A stretch of 39,208 nt of DNA, from the NCBI GenBank assembly GCA_903789665.1, contig CAIFEX010000028.1, positions 1 through 39,208 of the forward strand, written 5' to 3'. Made by a program: the position numbers and the translations under genes. Positions 15,748 through 36,267 of the stretch are shown here, in pieces. Numbering within the stretch: position 1 is the first letter of the stretch; every line of letters starts with the position of its first letter. Under the pieces are notes generated by a model. The model was not told the origin of the DNA. It ran no database searches and was given only the letters and a program-made list of their open reading frames with translations. This stretch comes from an uncultured Clostridium sp. (GTDB lineage Bacteria > Bacillota > Clostridia > Clostridiales > Clostridiaceae).

Positions 15748-15821
15748 TATGTTTTATAGTTAATTCTTTAAAAAAATTTTTTAAAATAGAACTTGAGATG
15801 AAAATCAAGAGGAGGATTATT

Positions 15822-17054
15822 ATGGAAAAATATTACAGAAAAGCTGCCTTTCTTGGAATTTTAATTAGCGTACTCTGGGTGATTTTTGTAAACACACAGC
15901 CATTTTCAGATTTTGCCTATTATGATGGACTGGCAAGACAGATAGCACTTGGAGGGCCCTGGGGTGATACCTATACTTCTGTGGGATATCCTATTGTGCT
16001 GGGGTTTGTATATAAAATTTTTGGCAGCAGTTTGGTATCAGCAAAAATCTTTAATTTAACACTTACATTTATAAACTACATACTTTTTTATAAAATACTG
16101 AAAAAAGCAGACCTTGCTGAAAAGAAGCGTAGATTCATATACGGCTTATTTGTTGCCTTCCCCAGCAATATATTTTACAATAGTGTTCTGGCGGTGGAAA
16201 TACTGTTTACTACCATACTGCTTCTAATGACATTCCTGTACTTTTATGATGTCAGATACAAGTATATCCTGATTGGCATATTGACAGCTGCAGGTGCCAT
16301 GGTGAAACCATTTTTCATAGTTTTTCCATTTCTGATCTTTATGGTTGAATTGTGTCTCAAAATGAAGTTTTGGGTGGTATTGAAACATTCAATCACCGTA
16401 TTTATAATAAGTGCCATAGCCATATCACCGTGGCTGTATAGAAATACCAAGCTTTTAGGACAGTTCACATTTATATCCAATAATAGTGGAATAGTACTTT
16501 ATGTAAATAATAATTCCCAAAATAAATACGGCATGTGGATGGATGCCAGAAATGTGCACGATTCCATTGTAAAAAAGACCGAGTATATAAATGCAAATGC
16601 CACGGAGAAAAACAGGATGCTTTCCAGTGCGGCACGAAAATGGATAGGGTCACATCCTGCAAAATTTGTTCAGCTCGGGTTCAAACGACTTTTTATTACC
16701 TATATTGGTTTTAGTGAAATAGACTACAGTTTCAACGGTGCAAACATAAACCCCGTTTTCAAATTCATATTTTCATTTTATGCCTATGCTGCAAGATATC
16801 TGGTGTTTATTCCTGCACTGATCATGATTGCTGTATACAGCGTAATAGTGATTAAAAAATTTTTTAATAAGAAGCCTGTGGATCGATACTTAATATACAA
16901 TCTTATTTGCTTTTACATGTTTGCCGTTGTGTATTTTGTTTCCGAAGGTCAGCCCCGCTATTCATTTCCCTGTACATTTACATTGGTTTACTTTTTCTCC
17001 TGTTTTATGGAAAGAACCAATTTTGTCAGATCTGTAAAAAACGTAAAATTATAG
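15822..17054 (+). CDS. GT-C fold membrane glycosyltransferase (ArnT/PMT type)
   Basis: A 410-residue protein with about ten membrane spans and an early acidic motif (F-S-D-F-A-Y-Y-D-G-L) in the first external loop, as in GT39/GT83-type enzymes that move a sugar from a polyprenyl phosphate carrier to a surface acceptor. The ATG at 15822 follows AGGAGG and matches the start of the second copy at 35620; an in-frame ATG at 15798 is upstream of that site and is rejected. It lies 34 bases upstream of a two-component pair, likely in the same transcript. The sugar and acceptor are unknown. Confidence 0.8.
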   Translation: MEKYYRKAAFLGILISVLWVIFVNTQPFSDFAYYDGLARQIALGGPWGDTYTSVGYPIVLGFVYKIFGSSLVSAKIFNLTLTFINYILFYKILKKADLAEKKRRFIYGLFVAFPSNIFYNSVLAVEILFTTILLLMTFLYFYDVRYKYILIGILTAAGAMVKPFFIVFPFLIFMVELCLKMKFWVVLKHSITVFIISAIAISPWLYRNTKLLGQFTFISNNSGIVLYVNNNSQNKYGMWMDARNVHDSIVKKTEYINANATEKNRMLSSAARKWIGSHPAKFVQLGFKRLFITYIGFSEIDYSFNGANINPVFKFIFSFYAYAARYLVFIPALIMIAVYSVIVIKKFFNKKPVDRYLIYNLICFYMFAVVYFVSEGQPRYSFPCTFTLVYFFSCFMERTNFVRSVKNVKL

Positions 17055-22242: not shown

Positions 22243-23040
22243 ATGATAAATAAGAGCGAAAAAGCATTGATATGCAAAGATATAAATGAAATAACAAGTT
22301 CAAAGCGTGTTTTTATTCCCATGACTATTGTGCCCGTTGTCCTGATTGTAATCATACCTTTTGCAGTACTTATCGGTGCAAATTTTATTGGAAGTGATTC
22401 AAGTACTTTCACAAAAATGGCTCCTCTTTTGAAAAAGCTGCCTTCGGAATATAGTGCATATACCCCTGCTCAGCTTTTGATAATGGTATCGCTGAATTTT
22501 ATGTTTTCGTCATATTTCCTTATAATTCCGATAATGTGTTCAGGAGTTATCGGAGCCAGCAGTTTTGTGGGAGAAAAAGAACACAAGACCATGGAATCCC
22601 TGCTTTATACTCCAATATCAATGGAACAGCTGCTAAGGGCCAAGATTTTAGGTGTCTTTGTGCCATCTTACATAATTACCTTTATTTCATTTGTAGTTTT
22701 TGGCATAATATTTGATGTAGGCGGCTTCATCTATTTTGGAAAACTTATTTTCCCGGATGTAAAATGGCTCATAATCATATTCTGGATTACACCTGCAGTC
22801 AATTTATTGTCATTGACATTTACTGTCATGGTATCTGCAAAATCGGAAACTTTTCAGGAAGCACAGCAGGTGAGCGGCTTTCTTCTCATCCCGGTAATTA
22901 TTTTACTGGTGGGCCAGATGACAGGGGTACTTTTGCTAAACAAAGCTATAATGCTTGCAGGAGGCGGAATTCTGATGATAATTGACTACCTACTTATAAA
23001 GAAAATTTCCTCCAAATTTGTTCCTGAAGAGCTGATTTAA
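22243..23040 (+). CDS. ABC-2 type permease
   Basis: A 265-residue membrane protein with about six spans, including the conserved F-V-G-E-K-E-H-K-T-M-E-S-L-L-Y-T-P-I-S segment of ABC-2 permeases between spans 2 and 3. ATG 22243 is chosen because GAGGTG lies nine bases upstream; a GTG at 22231 is inside that site. It completes the XRE-ATPase-permease operon. Substrate is likely an antimicrobial or other toxic compound by analogy, without direct evidence. Confidence 0.88.
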   Translation: MINKSEKALICKDINEITSSKRVFIPMTIVPVVLIVIIPFAVLIGANFIGSDSSTFTKMAPLLKKLPSEYSAYTPAQLLIMVSLNFMFSSYFLIIPIMCSGVIGASSFVGEKEHKTMESLLYTPISMEQLLRAKILGVFVPSYIITFISFVVFGIIFDVGGFIYFGKLIFPDVKWLIIIFWITPAVNLLSLTFTVMVSAKSETFQEAQQVSGFLLIPVIILLVGQMTGVLLLNKAIMLAGGGILMIIDYLLIKKISSKFVPEELI

Positions 23041-23189
23041 ATCCATATTAGATAATATTGCCAACTGAATGTGGTGTCTCTGGCCGCTGCTTTTACAGAA
23101 ATAGCGGTATCTCCAAGATTTATTTATGATTTAATACTATAAATTTATATAACCTTGAAGATACTCACAGGCATATTCTATTAATAAAA

Positions 23190-23333
23190 TTAACGCATAA
23201 ATTCTTTTCCAATTTCATGAGCGACAGGCAACACCTCTTTGTTAACAAAATCTCTAACTTCCATTCTGATTTGTTGTGTTTCATCTGTCATAATTGAATC
23301 GTGGTAAATTTTTGGCATCAGTCTTGAAGTCAT
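23190..23333 (-). pseudogene. acyl-CoA dehydrogenase N-terminal remnant
   Basis: A minus-strand frame of 47 codons with a strong GGGGG site before its ATG at 23333. The product begins M-T-S-R-L-M-P-K-I-Y and contains T-D-E-T-Q-Q-I-R-M-E-V-R-D-F-V-N-K-E-V-L-P, the first helix of an acyl-CoA dehydrogenase (family length about 380). It then stops. No further homologous sequence is visible to the left, so the rest of the gene was lost by deletion. The remaining bases of this 544-base gap (23041-23189 and 23334-23470) show nothing recognisable. Confidence 0.65.
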
Positions 23334-23507
23334 TTTTAATCCCCCTTAAAATTTTATTGTTTTATATTGATATCATTTGAGTAAATGTTAACAGCAAAAG
23401 AATACTATATTTAAAATATTTGTGTTTATAGAAAAATAACATGTTAGACTATTCTGTACTTTTTAAGGCTTATTGTATATATGAAAATGTATGCAGTCAA
23501 TCGAATA

Positions 23508-23524
23508 ATTGTATGTAATACAAT
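23508..23524. promoter_or_regulatory. MocR-type operator before the M20 peptidase
   Basis: The palindrome ATTGTAT-GTA-ATACAAT has perfect 7-bp arms. The same palindrome occurs at 24646-24662 and 28480-28496. An extra half site ATTGTAT lies at 23472-23478, 36 bases upstream in direct orientation. It is placed about 60 bases before the peptidase start. The third copy lies in the mocR promoter, so MocR is the probable binder. Confidence 0.65.
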
Positions 23525-23584
23525 ATTCCAGTACAGGCCTTATTAAATACGAGTTAAAATAAATATTGCTGGGAGGTTTTATAA

Positions 23585-24646
23585 ATGGATTGTATAGAAA
23601 TTACAAAGGAACTTATTAAAATTGATAGTTCAAATTTAGAGGGAGCAAATGATGCCGTAAATTTTTGCAATAACATATTATCATCAAGTGGATTAAAGAC
23701 TGAAATAATTGAGAATGATGGATTTAAAATTTTAATATGCACTATTGGAAATGGGCATAAGAGAATAATATTAAATGGACATCTGGATGTTGTCCTTGGA
23801 AAAAATAAGCAGTTTATGCCCTATATTGAAGGTGGAAGGCTCTATGGAAGAGGTAGTGCTGACATGAAATCTGGGGCTGCAGCTATGCTTAGTACAATAC
23901 TAAAGCTCAAGAATAAAAGCTTGACCTGCCAAGTTCAGCTTCAATTAGTTACAGATGAGGAAACTGGAGGCTTTAATTGTTCGAAATATCTAGCTGATAA
24001 TGGTTTTGTGGGAGATTTTGTGATTTGTGGAGAGCCTACTCAATTAGAAATAGGTATACAAGCAAAAGGTATATTGCAGATTTATTTAGAGTTTATCGGA
24101 AAATCCGCTCACGGCAGCAGACCCTGGCAGGGAGATAATGCCATAGTTAAAGCCTATGAAGCTTATAAAACAATTACAAGTTTACCTTTTACTAAAGAAA
24201 AATCTGAATTTTATAGTTGTCCATCCGTTAATTTATCTAAAATTGAAGGTGGAGATGTTTATAATAAGGTACCTGACTATTGTAAAATGTATCTCGATAT
24301 AAGATTTCTGCCGGAGCAAGATCCTAAAGAAATAATAAGACAAATTAAAGAGTCTGCTGGTGTTGAAGTAAATGTTCATTCTAGAGGAGATGCTGTAAAA
24401 ACCAAGATTGATGATATGAATGTAAAAAAATTGAAGAAATCAATTAGCAGGATAACTAATGGTAAATCTGAGATATTTGGCCAGCATGGTTCTGCAGATA
24501 CTAGGTTTTATTCAAAATATAATGTACCTTCTGTAGAATTTGGACCTATAGGGAAGAACTGGCATGGTGATGATGAATTTGTGATTATAGACTCAGTATA
24601 CTTATATGAACAAATTCTTATGGATTTTATAAAAAATAACCAGTAA
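23585..24646 (+). CDS. M20-family metallopeptidase/deacylase (ArgE/DapE type)
   Basis: A 353-residue cytoplasmic zinc amidohydrolase. Expected metal ligands and catalytic residues are present: H66 and D68 in N-G-H-L-D-V-V, D93 in G-R-G-S-A-D-M-K, E125/E126 in D-E-E-T-G-G, E150 in C-G-E-P-T, and H327 in W-H-G-D-D-E. A dimerisation (lid) domain lies between about 158 and 270. The family removes acyl groups from amino acids or trims dipeptides. GGGAGG precedes the ATG. Its TAA overlaps the operator in the 81-bp repeat. The operator upstream ties it to the MocR regulon. Confidence 0.88.
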   Translation: MDCIEITKELIKIDSSNLEGANDAVNFCNNILSSSGLKTEIIENDGFKILICTIGNGHKRIILNGHLDVVLGKNKQFMPYIEGGRLYGRGSADMKSGAAAMLSTILKLKNKSLTCQVQLQLVTDEETGGFNCSKYLADNGFVGDFVICGEPTQLEIGIQAKGILQIYLEFIGKSAHGSRPWQGDNAIVKAYEAYKTITSLPFTKEKSEFYSCPSVNLSKIEGGDVYNKVPDYCKMYLDIRFLPEQDPKEIIRQIKESAGVEVNVHSRGDAVKTKIDDMNVKKLKKSISRITNGKSEIFGQHGSADTRFYSKYNVPSVEFGPIGKNWHGDDEFVIIDSVYLYEQILMDFIKNNQ

Positions 24647-24723
24647 TTGTATTACATACAATTATAGCATTGAAAGCATATAATTTCAATGCTATAATTT
24701 TACTAATGTATGTATTATATGCA
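24643..24723. repeat. 81-bp regulatory repeat, copy 1
   Basis: Direct repeat of 28477-28557 with only a few mismatches. It holds the operator palindrome (24646-24662), then a 38-bp palindrome (24661-24698) with 15-bp perfect arms ATTATAGCATTGAAA and its complement. That palindrome encodes promoters on both strands: plus TTGAAA (24670)-17 bp-TATAAT (24693-24698), minus TTGAAA (24689)-17 bp-TATAAT (24666-24661). A further AATGTATGTATTA site follows. The plus promoter points at ridA; the minus one points antisense into the peptidase gene. Confidence 0.8.
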
Positions 24724-24765
24724 GAAAAGTTTTATTGATAAAGACAAAAATGGAGACAGGGAGGA

Positions 24766-25044
24766 ATGAGGCCTGAAGATGGTTCCGTAGTTGAAGGAGA
24801 CATTAAAGCACAAGCGGAACAGGCCATAAAAAACTTAGGTGAGCTATTCAAAGCAGCTGGAACAGATTTTACAAAAGTAATTAAGACAACTTGCTTTCTT
24901 GCAGATATGTCTTATTTCAGTGCATTTAATGCAGTGTATGCAAAGTATTTCACTGAAAAGCCGGACAGAACTTGTGTTGCAGTAAAACAACTCCCACTTG
25001 GTGTTTTATGCGAAGTTGAGGCAATTGCCTATTTAGAAGATTAA
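24766..25044 (+). pseudogene. RidA-family deaminase, N-terminally truncated
   Basis: 92 residues matching the C-terminal three-quarters of RidA/YjgF proteins (usual length about 125), which hydrolyse reactive enamine/imine intermediates released by PLP enzymes. The late motifs D-R-T-C-V-A-V-K-Q-L-P-L-G-V-L-C-E-V-E-A-I-A are intact, including the Arg and Glu of the active site. The first 35 or so residues, including the G-P-Y-S-Q segment, are absent; the frame begins at what would be P-E-D-G-S-V-V-E-G-D. GGGAGG precedes the ATG closely (two bases), so a short product might still be made. Folding of the trimer is doubtful. Confidence 0.75.
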
Positions 25045-25058
25045 AGGAGGAAATTAAA

Positions 25059-25832
25059 ATGAGACAATATATAGTAGATGCTTTTTCAGACAAGGTATTT
25101 GGGGGAAACCCTGCAGCAGTATGTGTTATGAATAAATGGCTTCCTGATGAAATTATGATGAAGATAACAAGAGAAAATTGTCTGTCGGAGACAGCTTTTG
25201 CAGTAAAAGAAGGATCAGATTATAAATTAAGGTGGTTCACTCCCGGCGGCGAAATTGACTTATGCGGACATGCTACTCTTGCAACAGCATACATTATAAC
25301 CAGGTTTATTGAGCCTGAAGTAACAGAAGTTCATTTTCAGACACTCAGCGGACTTTTATTAGTTGTAAAAAAAGGTGATCTTCTTAAAATGGACTTTCCA
25401 TCATATGATTTAAAAAAAGTAGACGTAACTGAAGCGATGACTGAAGCCATAGGGGTCAGACCTCTAGAAGCATATATGGGTAGGGATCTGCTCTGCGTTC
25501 TTGAATCTGAAGAAGAAGTCAGAAATCTAAATCCGAATCAGGAGAAGGTAAATACACTGGATGGACTACTTTTACATGTTACAGCCAAAGGTAAAGAGTT
25601 CGATTGTGTATCCAGATCATTTGCACCAAAATGCAATGTACCAGAAGATCCGGTATGCGGTTCAGGACACTGCCATATTATTCCGTTCTGGGCTAAAAGG
25701 TCGGGAAAGAATAACCTAGTTGCCTACCAGGCTTCACCGAGAGGCGGCATATTATATTGTGAATATCAGGGAGAAAGAGTAAAAATGAGCGGCAAAGCAG
25801 CTTTATATTCCACTGCAGATATTAATTTCTAA
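25059..25832 (+). CDS. PhzF-family isomerase
   Basis: A full-length 257-residue PhzF-fold protein (two similar half-barrels). The catalytic Glu of the family is at E44 in N-C-L-S-E-T-A-F, with D-x-C-G-H-A-T-L in the first half and E-D-P-V-C-G-S-G-H-C-H in the second. PhzF catalyses a proton shift in phenazine synthesis; most relatives have unknown substrates, often amino-acid derived. AAAGGAGG precedes the ATG, 14 bases after ridA. Its stop TAA overlaps the ATG of a second PhzF fragment. Confidence 0.88.
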   Translation: MRQYIVDAFSDKVFGGNPAAVCVMNKWLPDEIMMKITRENCLSETAFAVKEGSDYKLRWFTPGGEIDLCGHATLATAYIITRFIEPEVTEVHFQTLSGLLLVVKKGDLLKMDFPSYDLKKVDVTEAMTEAIGVRPLEAYMGRDLLCVLESEEEVRNLNPNQEKVNTLDGLLLHVTAKGKEFDCVSRSFAPKCNVPEDPVCGSGHCHIIPFWAKRSGKNNLVAYQASPRGGILYCEYQGERVKMSGKAALYSTADINF

Positions 25833-26053
25833 TGTATTTTGAATTTATGACTGGGAATTCTCGGTTGAGAATTTTTACACCTCATCACGAGCTGCCTTTT
25901 GCAGGGCATACAACTATTGGTTCCGCCTTCGCCGCACTGAAACATGGTATAAAACTCCAAAATATAACTTATTTGGTTCAAGAATGTGACAGTGGAATTA
26001 TACAGAGCATAATCAAGATTGTTATTTATGGACAAATTTATTGGGAAAACTAA
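25832..26053 (+). pseudogene. second PhzF-family remnant
   Basis: 73 codons of which about residues 10-45 match the first half of a different PhzF protein: R-L-R-I-F-T-P-H-H-E-L-P-F-A-G-H-T-T-I-G-S-A-F-A-A-L, followed by L-V-Q-E-C-D-S-G-I-I. The N-terminal catalytic Glu segment and the whole second half are missing. There is no clear ribosome binding site. Since the preceding PhzF gene is complete, this is the trace of a neighbouring paralogue and not a frameshifted end of it. Confidence 0.7.
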
Positions 26054-26095
26054 ATTATATTTGTTAAGTTGGGAATTTATGGAGGGGGCATAGAC

Positions 26096-26788
26096 ATGAA
26101 AAAACTAGGTTTAATTGGCGGAATAGGGCCAGAATCAACAATCCCATATTATCATGATATTGTATATGGAGTTCAAAGCAAGGTTGGGGGAAATTTTTTC
26201 CCTAATTTAACTATTGAGAGCTTGAATGTTTTTGATGTTCTTGGTATGTGTGACAGAAAAGAATATGAAGCACTCGTCAATTATTTAATGAGTGCAATCA
26301 ATAATTTGAAAGCCAGCGGAGTGGATTTTATAGCTTTAACTGGTAATACACCACATATTGTTTTTGACGAGTTGCAGGAGCGTTCATCTATTCCCATCAT
26401 AAGTATTATTCAGGCCACCTGTGATGAGACAAAGCGACGCAATATATCTAAAGTAGGATTACTGGGGACAATCTTTACTATGGATGGAGAATTTTTTAAA
26501 AAGCCATTCGAAAATAATAATATAGAAGTAGTAATACCAAATGATGAAGAAAAGAGATTTGTTAATCAAAAAATTTCACAAGAGTTAGAATTAGGTATTG
26601 TCAAGGAAGAAACTTTATCGTCATTTCTGAAAATTGTGCAGAGAATGAAAGACGAAAATGGAATACAGGCAATTGTTTTAGGTTGTACTGAATTGCCTTT
26701 ATTGTTTAAAGGGGTTAGAACACCGGTAGATTGTTTGGATACAATGCAGATCCATATTCAGACGCTTATTAATATGATTGTAGGTTAG
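26096..26788 (+). CDS. Asp/Glu racemase-family protein, single catalytic Cys
   Basis: A 230-residue member of the PLP-independent aspartate/glutamate racemase family. N-terminal K-L-G-L-I-G-G-I-G-P-E-S-T and C-terminal V-L-G-C-T-E-L-P-L (C197) are typical. The first catalytic position, normally Cys in C-N-T, is glycine here (G83 in L-T-G-N-T-P-H). In E. coli YgeA this position is Thr. ATG 26096 follows GGAGGGGG; an earlier in-frame start at 26069 lies before that site. It may racemise an amino acid in one direction only or bind without catalysis. It is the last intact gene before mocR, which converges on it. Confidence 0.85.
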   Translation: MKKLGLIGGIGPESTIPYYHDIVYGVQSKVGGNFFPNLTIESLNVFDVLGMCDRKEYEALVNYLMSAINNLKASGVDFIALTGNTPHIVFDELQERSSIPIISIIQATCDETKRRNISKVGLLGTIFTMDGEFFKKPFENNNIEVVIPNDEEKRFVNQKISQELELGIVKEETLSSFLKIVQRMKDENGIQAIVLGCTELPLLFKGVRTPVDCLDTMQIHIQTLINMIVG

Positions 26789-26816
26789 ATCCTATAGGGT
26801 TAATAAAGCTTCAGAA

Positions 26817-27059
26817 TTGAGAATTGTGACTACACAAGAAGCAAAAGAATTAGATATAGTTTATCAAGTTACAACAGTGGATAAACTAGAGGAAGCAACT
26901 ATGAAATTAGCGAAAAAACTTGCATGCGGGCCTTCGATAGCTTATTCATACATGAAGGACATGTTATATCAAACCTCATTTAATGATTTTGAAGAATTTT
27001 TGAAAATGGAGACTGACGCAGCGAAGTGTATTTTTCAAAATTTCCTATATTATCAGTGA
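26817..27059 (+). pseudogene. enoyl-CoA hydratase/isomerase C-terminal remnant
   Basis: About 70 residues matching the C-terminal part of crotonase-family enzymes: R-I-V-T-T-Q-E-A-K-E-L-D-I-V-Y-Q-V, then A-K-K-L-A-C-G-P-S-I-A-Y-S-Y-M-K and F-L-K-M-E-T-D-A. The N-terminal oxyanion-hole half is missing, there is no proper start codon, and the last residues diverge from the family. The fragment is therefore truncated on both sides. It may derive from the same lost acyl-CoA pathway as the dehydrogenase remnant at 23.2 kb. Confidence 0.65.
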
Positions 27060-28463
27060 ATTTATATTTGTTTTATCAGTTTTTCCCGACAGGATATTTT
27101 TTAATATAGCTAAACCTTTTCCCAATTCATCAGAATTATTGGCAGATGATAATACTACACGTAAAAATTGTTTTTCCTTATAATTTCCAACTAAGAAACG
27201 ATCTGAATGATAAATATGAATCCCCTGTTCCAGGGCATCTTTTTCAAATTGATTTGCATTAAACTTCTGTTTTAGTGGAAGCCAGCGGAATAAACTCACA
27301 GGGTTTTCGTTTGAATTTTCTATTTTGAAATACCTTTTATAGATTTGATTCCGTTCTTTTGAAGCAGATATTTTATCTTCAACTATTTGGTCTGCTATAC
27401 CGGTATTGATCATTTCAGCGATAATTTCTACATTTAATGCAGAAGTCTTTAAATTTATATTGTATATTCCACGCGTTATATTTTCAGAATATTTTCCGGG
27501 GTATACTATAAAAGCTACTCGTATTCCAGAACACAGGGACTTGGAAATACTGTTGATATAAATGGATTGTTCGGGTACAAAAGAAGTAATGGAAATATAA
27601 TTTTCAGGATTGAGGAAATAATAAATGTCATCTTCTATTAAGAGAAGGTTATTTTTTTTTATGATTTCTGCAAGTTCCTGTTTGCGTTCCATGTTCATTA
27701 AAGTTCCGGTAGGGTTGCTACAAGAAGGCATGAGATATATACCTTGTATGTTGTTCAGCTTGCATTGTGCATCCAGTTCTTCAGGTTTCATTCCTACATT
27801 GTCTCCCTTTATTGGAATCAATTGAATATCAAGCATATTTGCCAGTTCAATAAAATTAGGGTATGTGTATACGTCAACTGCAATTTTATCTCCTGAATGA
27901 AAAAGAGAAATCAAGATAACTGCAAGGGCATTTTGAGCACCTGATGTAATTGCAATATTCTCAATGTCTGCATCTATGTTATATTTTTTAAGCCATTTTT
28001 TAGCAGCGCTTTTGTGATAGGGGGTACCCAGCGGATAAGTGTAGTCTAATAATTTTTCTGCATATCCCTTTGATAAAACGCTCTTTGCTGTATTTACAAC
28101 AAGTGAATTGTTTTGGTCGAAGGGTTTTATAATCCCCATTTCTATGTAGCTTTTTTCTGTTCTGCAGTCTGATATTGAAATTATCGAACCTGCATTTGGT
28201 GAAACAAAAGTCCCTCTTCCGGTTGTACCATAAATTAATCCTTTTAGCTCACATATTTTAAATGCCCTTGTTATGGTGCTGAGGTTAATATCCAGATAAT
28301 CCGCCAGCTCTCGCTGAGGTGGCAATTTTGTGTTTGGGGCGAGGTATCCGTTTACAATATCATATTCCAGCAGATTTGCAATGGAAAGGTATATTGGTGT
28401 TTTAAGTTGAGTTTTATTGGGTTTCCATGACATTGGATAATTTTCAAAAGAATTTATTGGCAT
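27045..28463 (-). CDS. MocR/GntR-family regulator with aminotransferase domain
   Basis: A 472-residue regulator. Residues about 20-88 form a GntR-type winged helix (P-P-Q-R-E-L-A-D-Y-L-D-I-N-L-S-T-I-T-R-A). Residues 110-460 form a class I aminotransferase fold with the PLP-binding lysine at K308 (S-I-S-K-S-L) and the S-N-P-T-G-T segment. MocR proteins sense PLP or an amino-compound adduct with PLP. The ATG at 28463 has AGGAGG upstream. Its promoter (TTGTAA-17-TATAAT, minus strand) overlaps the operator palindrome, pointing to autoregulation. It most likely controls the M20-RidA-PhzF-racemase genes. Confidence 0.9.
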   Translation of the reverse strand: MPINSFENYPMSWKPNKTQLKTPIYLSIANLLEYDIVNGYLAPNTKLPPQRELADYLDINLSTITRAFKICELKGLIYGTTGRGTFVSPNAGSIISISDCRTEKSYIEMGIIKPFDQNNSLVVNTAKSVLSKGYAEKLLDYTYPLGTPYHKSAAKKWLKKYNIDADIENIAITSGAQNALAVILISLFHSGDKIAVDVYTYPNFIELANMLDIQLIPIKGDNVGMKPEELDAQCKLNNIQGIYLMPSCSNPTGTLMNMERKQELAEIIKKNNLLLIEDDIYYFLNPENYISITSFVPEQSIYINSISKSLCSGIRVAFIVYPGKYSENITRGIYNINLKTSALNVEIIAEMINTGIADQIVEDKISASKERNQIYKRYFKIENSNENPVSLFRWLPLKQKFNANQFEKDALEQGIHIYHSDRFLVGNYKEKQFLRVVLSSANNSDELGKGLAILKNILSGKTDKTNINSLII

Positions 28464-28476
28464 AGTAGAGCCTCCT

Positions 28477-28557
28477 GTAATTGTATTACATACAATTATA
28501 GCATTGAAAGCATATAATTACAATGCTATACTTTTACTAATGTATGTATTATGTGCA
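28477..28557. repeat. 81-bp regulatory repeat, copy 2 (mocR promoter)
   Basis: Same orientation as copy 1 at 24643. It holds the operator ATTGTAT-TAC-ATACAAT (28480-28496), 17 bases upstream of the mocR start. The mocR promoter on the minus strand is TTGTAA (28523-28518), 17-bp spacer, TATAAT (28500-28495); the operator overlaps its -10 and start region. The plus strand retains TTGAAA-17 bp-TATACT. An imperfect second site AATGTATGTATTA lies at the far end. Confidence 0.8.
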
Positions 28558-28759
28558 AACTGAAACAGATGCAGATAGTAACTTTTATCTTATTAAATCA
28601 CAAATCTTGGAGATACTCCTAGTTATATTTGTACAATGTCTAAAAGTAATTCAGCACAAAAAATTAGAGTATATTTGAATCAGGTTTAAATACATGCAAA
28701 ACTAATTAAAAATAAATATAGCAATTATTATAAATATTAATAAATTTCAGGAGGTGAAT

Positions 28760-28918
28760 ATGATGACGAAATCAGAGTTTTTAAAAAAAGCGGAAGAAAT
28801 TTGTTTAAGAGATGATTGCAGTATCTCAAATGCAATTGATGCAGTTATATATGAAAATAAAATAACCAATGCAGAATTCATTGCATTGTTCTGTAAAGGC
28901 AAAAGTAGTATAGGCTGA
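28760..28918 (+). CDS. small acidic orphan protein, 52 residues
   Basis: ATG-ATG start after a near-perfect CAGGAGGTGA site, ending at TGA 28916-28918. The product is helical, with M-T-K-S-E-F-L-K-K-A-E-E-I at the start and a single Cys pair (C15, C20 region). No family recognised. Strength of the ribosome binding site argues for real expression. The 200 bases before it include a closed frame reading T-P-S-Y-I-C-T-M-S-K-S-N-S-A-Q-K-I-R (about 28618-28680), perhaps the tail of a lost gene. Confidence 0.55.
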   Translation: MMTKSEFLKKAEEICLRDDCSISNAIDAVIYENKITNAEFIALFCKGKSSIG

Positions 28919-28998
28919 TGATATACGTTTATTATAGTAATAAAATATTATTTTTTAGCTAAAGATCTTTGACAATATTAAGTGATCATGTTACTATC

Positions 28999-29022
28999 AA
29001 AATAGTGTACATACACTATTTT
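28999..29022. promoter_or_regulatory. MarR operator upstream of its own gene
   Basis: Perfect inverted repeat with core AATAGTGTA-CA-TACACTATT and two more A-T pairs on each side. It lies 23 bases before the MarR start. A sister palindrome with the same GTGTA-N2-TACAC core lies at 29502-29521. Confidence 0.75.
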
Positions 29023-29044
29023 TAGTAATAAATGGAGATATATC

Positions 29045-29473
29045 ATGAGAGAAAAAATAAAACGTGTGAAAAGCAAATGCAATTGTATAAATTTAAGAAG
29101 AGCTTCAAATGCAATTACTGAATACTATGATAATATTATGAAGCCTAGTGGACTTACAGTAAATCAATTTTGCCTATTGAGGAATCTTAAAAGATTGGGT
29201 GTATGCAGTACAAGTGAACTAGCTGAATACGTTGGACTGGAAAGGACTACATTAGTACGTACTATCAGGCCGCTTTTCCAAAAAAATTATGTTGAAGACA
29301 TTTCCCCCGAAGGATCCAGAAATCGTCAAATTCAGGTCACGCCACAAGGTATACAAGCTTTAGAGATAAGTATTCCTTTATGGGAGAAAGCTCAAAAAGC
29401 TGTTGAATTAAAACTAGGTTCCAAAAATTTAAAATTGCTCATAAAATTTCTAGAAAAAATAGAAGAACTGTGA
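29045..29473 (+). CDS. MarR-family transcriptional regulator
   Basis: A 142-residue winged-helix repressor: dimerisation helices at both ends and the DNA-binding core about residues 45-100 (C-S-T-S-E-L-A-E-Y-V-G-L-E-R-T-T-L-V-R-T, then the wing S-P-E-G-S-R-N-R-Q-I-Q-V-T). A C-N-C pair near residue 16-18 could be redox-sensitive, although this is a guess. A GGAG site is close to the ATG. Palindromes before this gene and the next imply that it represses both. Confidence 0.88.
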   Translation: MREKIKRVKSKCNCINLRRASNAITEYYDNIMKPSGLTVNQFCLLRNLKRLGVCSTSELAEYVGLERTTLVRTIRPLFQKNYVEDISPEGSRNRQIQVTPQGIQALEISIPLWEKAQKAVELKLGSKNLKLLIKFLEKIEEL

Positions 29474-35619: not shown

Positions 35620-36267
35620 ATGGAGAAATATTATAGAAAAGCTGCTTTGTTTGGAATTTTACGGGACAGCTCACCTTTATATCTAATAACGGTGGAATAG
35701 TACTTTATGTAAATAATAATTCCCAGAATAGATATGGCATGTGGATGGATGCTAGAAATGTTCACAATTATGTTGTAAAAAGCACTGAATATATAAATGC
35801 AAATGCCACTAAGAAAAACAAAATGCTTTCCAGTGCAGCCCGGAAATGGATAAAGGCACATCCAGTAGAGTTTATTCAGCTTGGATTCAAGCGGCTGTTT
35901 ATTACCTATATTGGCTTCATCGAAATAGATTATAGCTTTAACGGTGCATATGTAAATCCAATTCTCAAATTTGTATTTTCATTTTATGCCTATTCTGCAA
36001 GATATATAGTATCTATTCCAGTTGTAATCATGCTGCTTGTATACAGCATAAAAAATTGGAAGATTCCTCGCTAAAGAATCTGTAAATAATTATTTAATAT
36101 ACAATCTTACTTGTTTTTATATATTTGCCTTTGTGTATTTTATTTCTAAAGGTTAGCCCCGTTATTCATTTCCCTGCACATTTGTCATGATTTACTTTTT
36201 CTCATATTTTGCAGAGAAAATAAGTTTTATCAGATCTGTAAAAAGTACAAAAGAACTACAAAATTGA
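35620..36267 (+). pseudogene. decayed second copy of the GT-C glycosyltransferase
   Basis: The ATG at 35620 keeps its GGAGG site and encodes M-E-K-Y-Y-R-K-A-A-L-F-G-I-L as in the gene at 15822. Sequence then jumps at TTTTA/CGGGACAG to the part equivalent to codon 210 or so of the intact copy, removing roughly 600 bases and shifting frame. The C-terminal part (35664-36074 and beyond) is homologous with G-M-W-M-D-A-R-N-V-H and later segments, but carries another frameshift near 36050 and an in-frame TAG near 36153. It ends around I-R-S-V-K-S-T-K. The copy is several percent diverged, so the duplication is not recent. Confidence 0.85.

Follow-up and report, generated by a model that had tools for sequence, protein, structure and literature searches.

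In the MocR divergons described by Suvorova and Rodionov (2016, PMC5320631), a regulator gene and its target are transcribed divergently and the regulator represses its own gene. Members of the PhzF and RidA families are among the targets named there, and the main text of that study places RidA in five regulogs of four groups. Genes of both families also lie near the element described here. We analysed a window of 39,208 nucleotides (contig CAIFEX010000028.1, hereafter C28) from a 3.03-Mb draft genome of 63 contigs (GCA_903789665.1) of an uncultured Clostridium sp., in which a duplicated DNA module stands upstream of mocR, the gene for an amino-acid-linked regulator, and upstream of a truncated ridA gene followed by phzF. 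The module is very probably a MocR operator with overlapping divergent promoters, that is, the operator–promoter region of a MocR divergon. It would add another case to a known type of control, one in which the promoter pair is unusually symmetrical and the module is doubled within a single locus.

The two copies form a direct repeat of 84 nt (24640–24723 and 28474–28557) with the same orientation, 95% identity and a spacing of 3834 bp. The original prediction, made from the sequence alone, had placed an identical 81-bp element at 24643 and 28477; the direct repetition was correct, but the repeat is longer and the copies are not the same letter for letter. Copy 1 combines the operator and the overlapping divergent promoters 5′ of the ridA remnant and phzF, and copy 2, which was also compared with the regions upstream of mocR relatives, carries the same module 5′ of mocR. 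In a blastn search of the own genome, copy 2 matched copy 1 with E = 1.2e-32. The 27 matches obtained with copy 1 at E values up to 10 were the two copies, their self-complementary matches, one inverted part-copy and weak matches from E 0.005 upward. The part-copy (23482–23524, annotated on the plus strand; E 1.5e-6) is diverged and sits 5′ of an M20 peptidase gene, where it provides a promoter-like ATGAAA-17-AATAAT and a perfect operator. Neither this part-copy nor the operator it places before the M20 gene had been noticed in the original prediction. No dispersed copies of the repeat were found in the draft genome, the two full copies and the part-copy all lying inside one 5.1-kb locus. An unrelated interspersed element, a possibility that the original prediction had itself raised, was looked for in the own genome and not found; an interspersed or mobile repeat was rejected on the blastn search.

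The operator is a 17-bp palindrome. As a perfect 17-mer, ATTGTATNNNATACAAT, it has three sites in the genome (23508, 24646 and 28480), one in each copy or part-copy of the repeat and each within 140 bp upstream of a gene or gene remnant of the locus. These sites cover 23508–23524 5′ of the M20 peptidase gene, 24646–24662 in copy 1 (ATTGTATTACATACAAT) and 28480–28496 in copy 2, the last with counterparts upstream of mocR relatives. In copy 1 the operator covers the predicted minus-strand start site and overlaps the minus-strand -10 by 2 bp, an overlap that had been correctly foreseen.

Next to the operator, copy 1 contains a 40-bp palindrome (24660–24699) whose perfect 16-bp arms enclose an 8-nt centre; the length first ascribed to it was 38 bp. 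It is the longest and only perfect inverted repeat in the window with arms of at least 13 bp (loop up to 12), and arms of at least 15 bp occurred in none of 40 first-order Markov sequences of window size. Both predicted promoters of copy 1 lie within it. The promoter scan bore out the earlier claim that TTGAAA-17-TATAAT can be read on both strands within the same bases, each time with a TG before the -10. The plus-strand promoter (24670–24698) points toward the ridA remnant and phzF and has a counterpart kept directly before phzF in genome G019; the minus-strand promoter (24661–24689) is of the mocR type and runs antisense into the M20 gene. Among the 42 promoter-like sites in 23000–29100, only these two score 11/12. 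The total lies about 2 standard deviations (sd) above shuffled sequences (mean 30.7, sd 5.8), and it is the two top sites rather than their number that are exceptional. The elements follow one another as minus -10, plus -35, minus -35 and plus -10, with the -10 elements of copy 1 (24661–24666 and 24693–24698) outermost, each -35 within the spacer of the other promoter, and the predicted start sites about 50 bp apart. In copy 2 the promoter scan and the aligned sites point to a mocR promoter, TTGTAA-17-TATAAT with TG before the -10 (28495–28523, minus strand), and a divergent promoter, TTGAAA-17-TATACT, facing the right flank (28504–28532, plus strand). This pair is less symmetrical than that of copy 1.

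Between the M20 gene and ridA, such a palindrome could also act as RNA, its hairpin serving as a bidirectional terminator or attenuator. The fold of copy 1 (-18.3 kcal/mol, z -5.8) is followed by a T-rich stretch, and the site of C. carboxidivorans reaches z -4.8. However, copy 2 folds more weakly (z -2.5 and -1.1), the sites of Clostridium sp. OS1-26 (z -0.8) and Sporomusa (z 0.0) are close to shuffled sequences, and it is the promoter hexamers and the operator, not the pairing, that stay constant across relatives. The terminator scan, whose rule of three G-C pairs disfavours AT-rich stems, did not list the hairpin. An RNA hairpin as a conserved feature was rejected after six folds of five sites, in which folding was not conserved, and we consider a function of the palindrome at the RNA level very unlikely.

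The reading as a two-way overlapping promoter with a MocR operator, already put forward in the original prediction, is supported by comparison with mocR relatives. The best 80 of 152 relatives found by a MocR scan of genome contigs were used as named loci, and an operator was counted where at least 12 of 14 positions matched within 150 bp upstream of the gene. It was present in 41 of the 80 loci. With the loci divided at 44% protein identity, a cut set after the first operator count had been seen, 40 of 44 at or above the cut and 1 of 36 below it had the operator. The background rate was 0.9% of 6262 segments of the same loci. The order of -10, operator and ribosome-binding site recurs upstream of mocR in most of the 20 relatives inspected. 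A third box, TTGTATG in direct form (6/7 or better), lies 21 bp before the operator in 26 of the 41 loci, and its inverted form, CATACAA, lies 14 bp before the operator in 14. As in MocR divergons, the operator before the regulator gene is composed of boxes repeated at a fixed helical spacing, and the third half-box at a fixed place matches the MocR box classes in the main text of PMC5320631.

The promoters are conserved along with the operator. We aligned 45 sites, comprising 41 relatives, three window sites and one site of OS1-26; the best outward promoter falls into one identical register in 33 of them. After dereplication, 18 of 28 relatives have their best outward promoter in the same overlapping register; 500 shuffles gave 0.53 on average and never more than 4. 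Among the letters of the mocR-side -10 that lie outside the operator, position 2 is A in 41/41 relatives and position 1 is T in 37/41; a TG precedes this -10 in 34/41. An open reading frame (ORF) of at least 120 aa starts on the opposite strand within 214 bp of the operator in 39 of the 41 loci; the corresponding figure for random positions in these loci is 280 of 820. All nine outward genes scanned against Pfam could be assigned, to PhzF, zinc dehydrogenase, AzlC (two), a pyridoxal phosphate (PLP)-dependent enzyme, a riboflavin-type energy-coupling factor (ECF) transporter subunit, MatE, an aminotransferase and a hexapeptide transferase.

Several observations weigh against a MocR operator with overlapping divergent promoters. 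Promoter use and MocR binding are predicted from position. The operator is missing from the 150 bp upstream of mocR in 4 of the 44 close relatives (L072, L078, L087 and L089), the best outward promoter lies elsewhere in 10 of the 28 dereplicated relatives, and the mocR-side -35 matches at only 2–3 of 6 positions in nine Bacillus-group relatives (L052–L058, L062 and L088). The shuffles kept base composition only, the loci share ancestry and the operator boxes partly overlap the -35, so that the register count is evidence of conservation and not a strict probability. Likewise, the A2 and T6 seen in 45/45 aligned sites are partly built in, because the operator begins with the final two letters of the -10. 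At the DNA level, the element was matched at E 0.01 in 23 of 59 relatives, strongly, besides the own genome, only in G015 (4e-17) and G019 (8e-10). Operators with one mismatch are about as frequent as a reversed control (7 versus 4 in the own genome, 14 versus 17 in G150); only exact sites near the locus therefore carry weight, and a genome-wide regulon beyond the locus was rejected on these counts. Relatives of the M20 gene occur in nine other genomes, and in the four whose upstream stretch was inspected (OS1-26, C. carboxidivorans, G149 and G185) no operator within one mismatch was found. The operator before the M20 gene may thus be particular to this genome, or accidental.

Furthermore, neither the minus-strand promoter of copy 1 nor the plus-strand one of copy 2 faces an evident target gene in the window. 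This bears on the alternative that each copy holds a plain MocR operator and one real promoter, the opposite promoter being an unused leftover of a divergon. One direction per copy would then lead nowhere, antisense into the M20 gene from copy 1 and into the right flank from copy 2, and drift is seen in the outward -10 of copy 2 as well as in the opposite -10 of G019. Against this, both directions of copy 1 match 11/12 consensus positions with TG before the -10. Such a leftover would have the same origin as a promoter pair still in service and differs from it on present use only; we regard it as a genuine possibility, albeit somewhat improbable.

For the divergent operator–promoter region, we propose the following hypothetical mechanism. 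The palindrome ATTGTATNNNATACAAT, together with the third half-box present in most relatives, is the predicted binding site of MocR, beside which two putative sigma-A-type promoters with TG before the -10 interlock and point apart. Bound MocR would cover the -10 and the start of the mocR-facing promoter, leading to self-repression, and would also lie just upstream of the outward -35, from where, if it behaves as in MocR divergons, it could activate the outward gene or modulate its expression. As both promoters occupy the same DNA, their geometry suggests that only one polymerase could be accommodated at a time. The module would serve mocR as well as the truncated ridA-phzF pair, with its diverged part-copy placed before the M20 gene. 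The locus would have arrived with foreign DNA, and the near-identity of the copies could stem from duplication or gene conversion within the lineage.

The gene content of the locus fits only partly with the set first proposed. The M20 peptidase family gene (23585–24646, plus strand; Pfam PF01546 and PF07687) ends with its TAA stop at the left edge of copy 1. Between the repeats lie, as predicted, ridA, phzF, a racemase gene and mocR, but the ridA gene is a 5′-truncated remnant, and two gene fragments had been overlooked. The ridA remnant (24766–25044, plus strand) covers positions 31–120 of 121 of PF01042 and has a longer counterpart before phzF in G061. It is followed on the same strand by a complete gene for a PhzF-like isomerase (25059–25832; PF02567, positions 1–279 of 281), a fragment of a second phzF with a 73-aa open frame (25832–26053; PF02567, positions 51–99 of 281, scanned minus the last residue), an Asp/Glu racemase family gene (26096–26788; PF01177) and the 3′ fragment of an enoyl-CoA hydratase gene (26817–27059; PF00378, E 4.2e-5, below the curated cut-off). 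The mocR gene (27045–28463, minus strand) encodes a GntR-type DNA-binding domain (PF00392, residues 25–87) and a class I/II aminotransferase domain (PF00155, residues 115–445), both above the curated cut-offs, the combination that defines the MocR subfamily. In the window it has no evident divergent partner, and phzF has its own copy of the module.

Counterparts in other genomes show the module in comparable positions. OS1-26 has two modules, the first separating mocR from a dehydrogenase gene and the second separating ilvE from a ridA remnant with phzF. Each holds one of the two perfect operators of that genome, and a one-mismatch operator lies on the ilvE side. The second module (L048, 3400–3540) seems to serve both the ilvE-like aminotransferase class IV gene, to which the one-mismatch operator belongs, and the ridA remnant with phzF. 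In C. carboxidivorans, C. drakei, Paenibacillus helianthi and two Metaclostridioides/Clostridioides mangenotii records, mocR and a different phzF (52–57% identical) are direct divergent neighbours. In G148, a mocR relative is interrupted by a stop and is divergent to an ORF that, read from the sequence, resembles AzlC. The same genome contains a paralogous mocR, itself with in-frame stops, with three one-mismatch operators upstream (L146; 1108, 1346 and 1470).

A mocR relative at E 1e-60 occurs in 19 of 206 genomes of the family, G019 not among them. The phzF of G019 is 87% identical and directly follows TTGAAC-17-TATAAT; the opposite -10 reads TATAGG, and no operator within two mismatches was found at this locus. 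G019, which has kept the phzF promoter but has neither operator nor opposite -10 nor a close mocR relative, offers a natural comparison for which parts of the module matter. In G061, ridA before phzF reads as full length, and no operator was found within two mismatches at the ridA-phzF locus. Because an apparently full-length ridA precedes phzF there without an operator, ridA-phzF is probably an older pair. The loss of ridA extends from its 5′ part in the window through more of the gene in OS1-26 and G124 to the whole gene in G019.

The locus appears to be of foreign origin. Neither a mocR relative at E 1e-60 nor an M20 relative at E 1e-50 was found in the 12 other members of the genus, and close relatives of both occur in another genus of the family (76–82% identity for mocR, 75–79% for M20). 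Relatives of phzF at about 49–53% identity are present in 5 of the 12. The left limit of genus DNA falls between 23027 and 23060 in 8 of the 12 other members; on the right, such DNA resumes near 28685, in G010 only, the whole-genus DNA search having left out 25001–28699. In G010 the two flanks are about 735 kb apart, so no empty site can be demonstrated. Since the M20 gene outside the repeats is also foreign and genus DNA stops beyond both of them, the imported DNA seems to be larger than a cassette bounded by the repeats. The 15-mer GTATCTCCAAGATTT occurs at 23107–23121 (plus strand) and, inverted, at 28602–28616 (minus strand) and is found perfectly nowhere else in the genome; picked post hoc, it could mark the ends of the imported piece. 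Near the left edge, a 47-aa ORF (23190–23333, minus strand) is probably a gene remnant; its match to the N terminus of acyl-CoA dehydrogenases (E 4e-4) falls below the curated cut-off. Elsewhere in the window, 16458–17040 and 35664–36244, spaced by 19.2 kb, are directly repeated over stretches of 300 nt (83%) and 190 nt (76%); near 35739 there may be a truncated second copy of the 418-aa ORF at 15798, which has no Pfam match.

These boundaries also bear on the idea of a mobile or amplifiable cassette with the repeats as its ends, either resembling a miniature inverted-repeat transposable element (MITE) or allowing RecA-dependent excision of ridA-phzF-racemase-mocR. Repeats of 84 bp at 95% identity are long enough in principle for recombination, the two are 3.8 kb apart in direct orientation, and neither mocR nor the M20 gene is native to the genus. 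Nevertheless, the draft genome holds only two full copies and one part-copy, other matches starting at E 0.005; the foreign DNA seemingly continues beyond the repeats; each copy is the promoter region before a gene; the modules of OS1-26 likewise stand before mocR and before the ridA remnant with phzF; and no transposase was recognised among the ten ORFs scanned against Pfam. We therefore regard a cassette of this kind as highly improbable. The excision or amplification between the repeats envisaged in the original prediction found no support: the assembly contains neither such a junction nor a tandem copy, and the foreign stretch appears to reach beyond both repeats. A cassette defined by the repeats is thus not supported, the place of each copy being explained by its role as a promoter.

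The two window copies of the operator–promoter module agree at 75 of 78 aligned positions, each agrees with the OS1-26 modules at 62–66, and the latter agree with each other at 65. These figures fit independent captures of the module as well as one old capture followed by gene conversion. A more far-reaching proposal is that the palindromic promoter is an orientation switch at which RNA polymerase can bind the same site either way round, with the direction chosen by MocR occupancy, and that the module is portable and self-contained, being copied before new genes (phzF and, as a diverged copy, the peptidase gene) and kept alike within a genome by gene conversion. We consider this speculative and rather unlikely. 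If true, the MocR regulon would grow by copying a whole switch instead of evolving single operator sites.

This operator or module is not named in any title or abstract opening among the papers listed by the literature searches. The strings ATTGT, TTGTAT, AzlC and Clostridium are absent from the main text of PMC5320631, and its supplementary tables may already predict this group. In contrast to the MocR divergons of that main text, mocR and phzF here each have their own copy of the module, and a diverged operator stands before a peptidase gene. The EnuR/EutR operator given in the text of PMC8739950, ATTGTnnnnnnACAAT, has the same half-site, ATTGT/ACAAT, and is likewise a palindrome overlapping core promoter elements. 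It differs in its spacer of six compared with seven here, and EnuR is linked there to ectoine genes. The 17-bp palindrome provides a sequence-defined candidate operator for a MocR group of Clostridia and Bacilli, making the effector of this group testable. Neighbouring genes in the group encode transporters (AzlC-type and others), PLP-dependent enzymes and PhzF-like isomerases.

For the promoters, the account of the pLS20 promoters Pr and Pc and their regulator Rco in PMC4207663 describes a similar arrangement, with divergent sigma-A promoters on the same DNA, one of which drives the regulator, and overlapping regulator sites. The -10 and -35 boxes of pLS20 are proposed to coincide crosswise, whereas in the module described here each -35 is predicted to lie inside the spacer of the other promoter. 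The bidirectional promoters reported by Warman et al. (PMC12825309, PMC10268837) are pseudo-symmetrical and, as predicted for the present module, take up polymerase in either orientation, one at a time. Their starts, as given in these reports, are 7–25 bp apart around a shared -10. Judged by its predicted starts, the module of copy 1 is not a shared -10 promoter of this kind, as its -10 elements are outermost and the starts would be about 50 bp apart. According to PMC12825309, competition at five tested bidirectional promoters of E. coli appeared only once one direction had been strengthened. In light of this result, the weight of polymerase competition at the Clostridium locus would depend on promoter strength. 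The interlocked divergent promoters of the MocR module could serve as a natural test case for the regulatory use of such competition.

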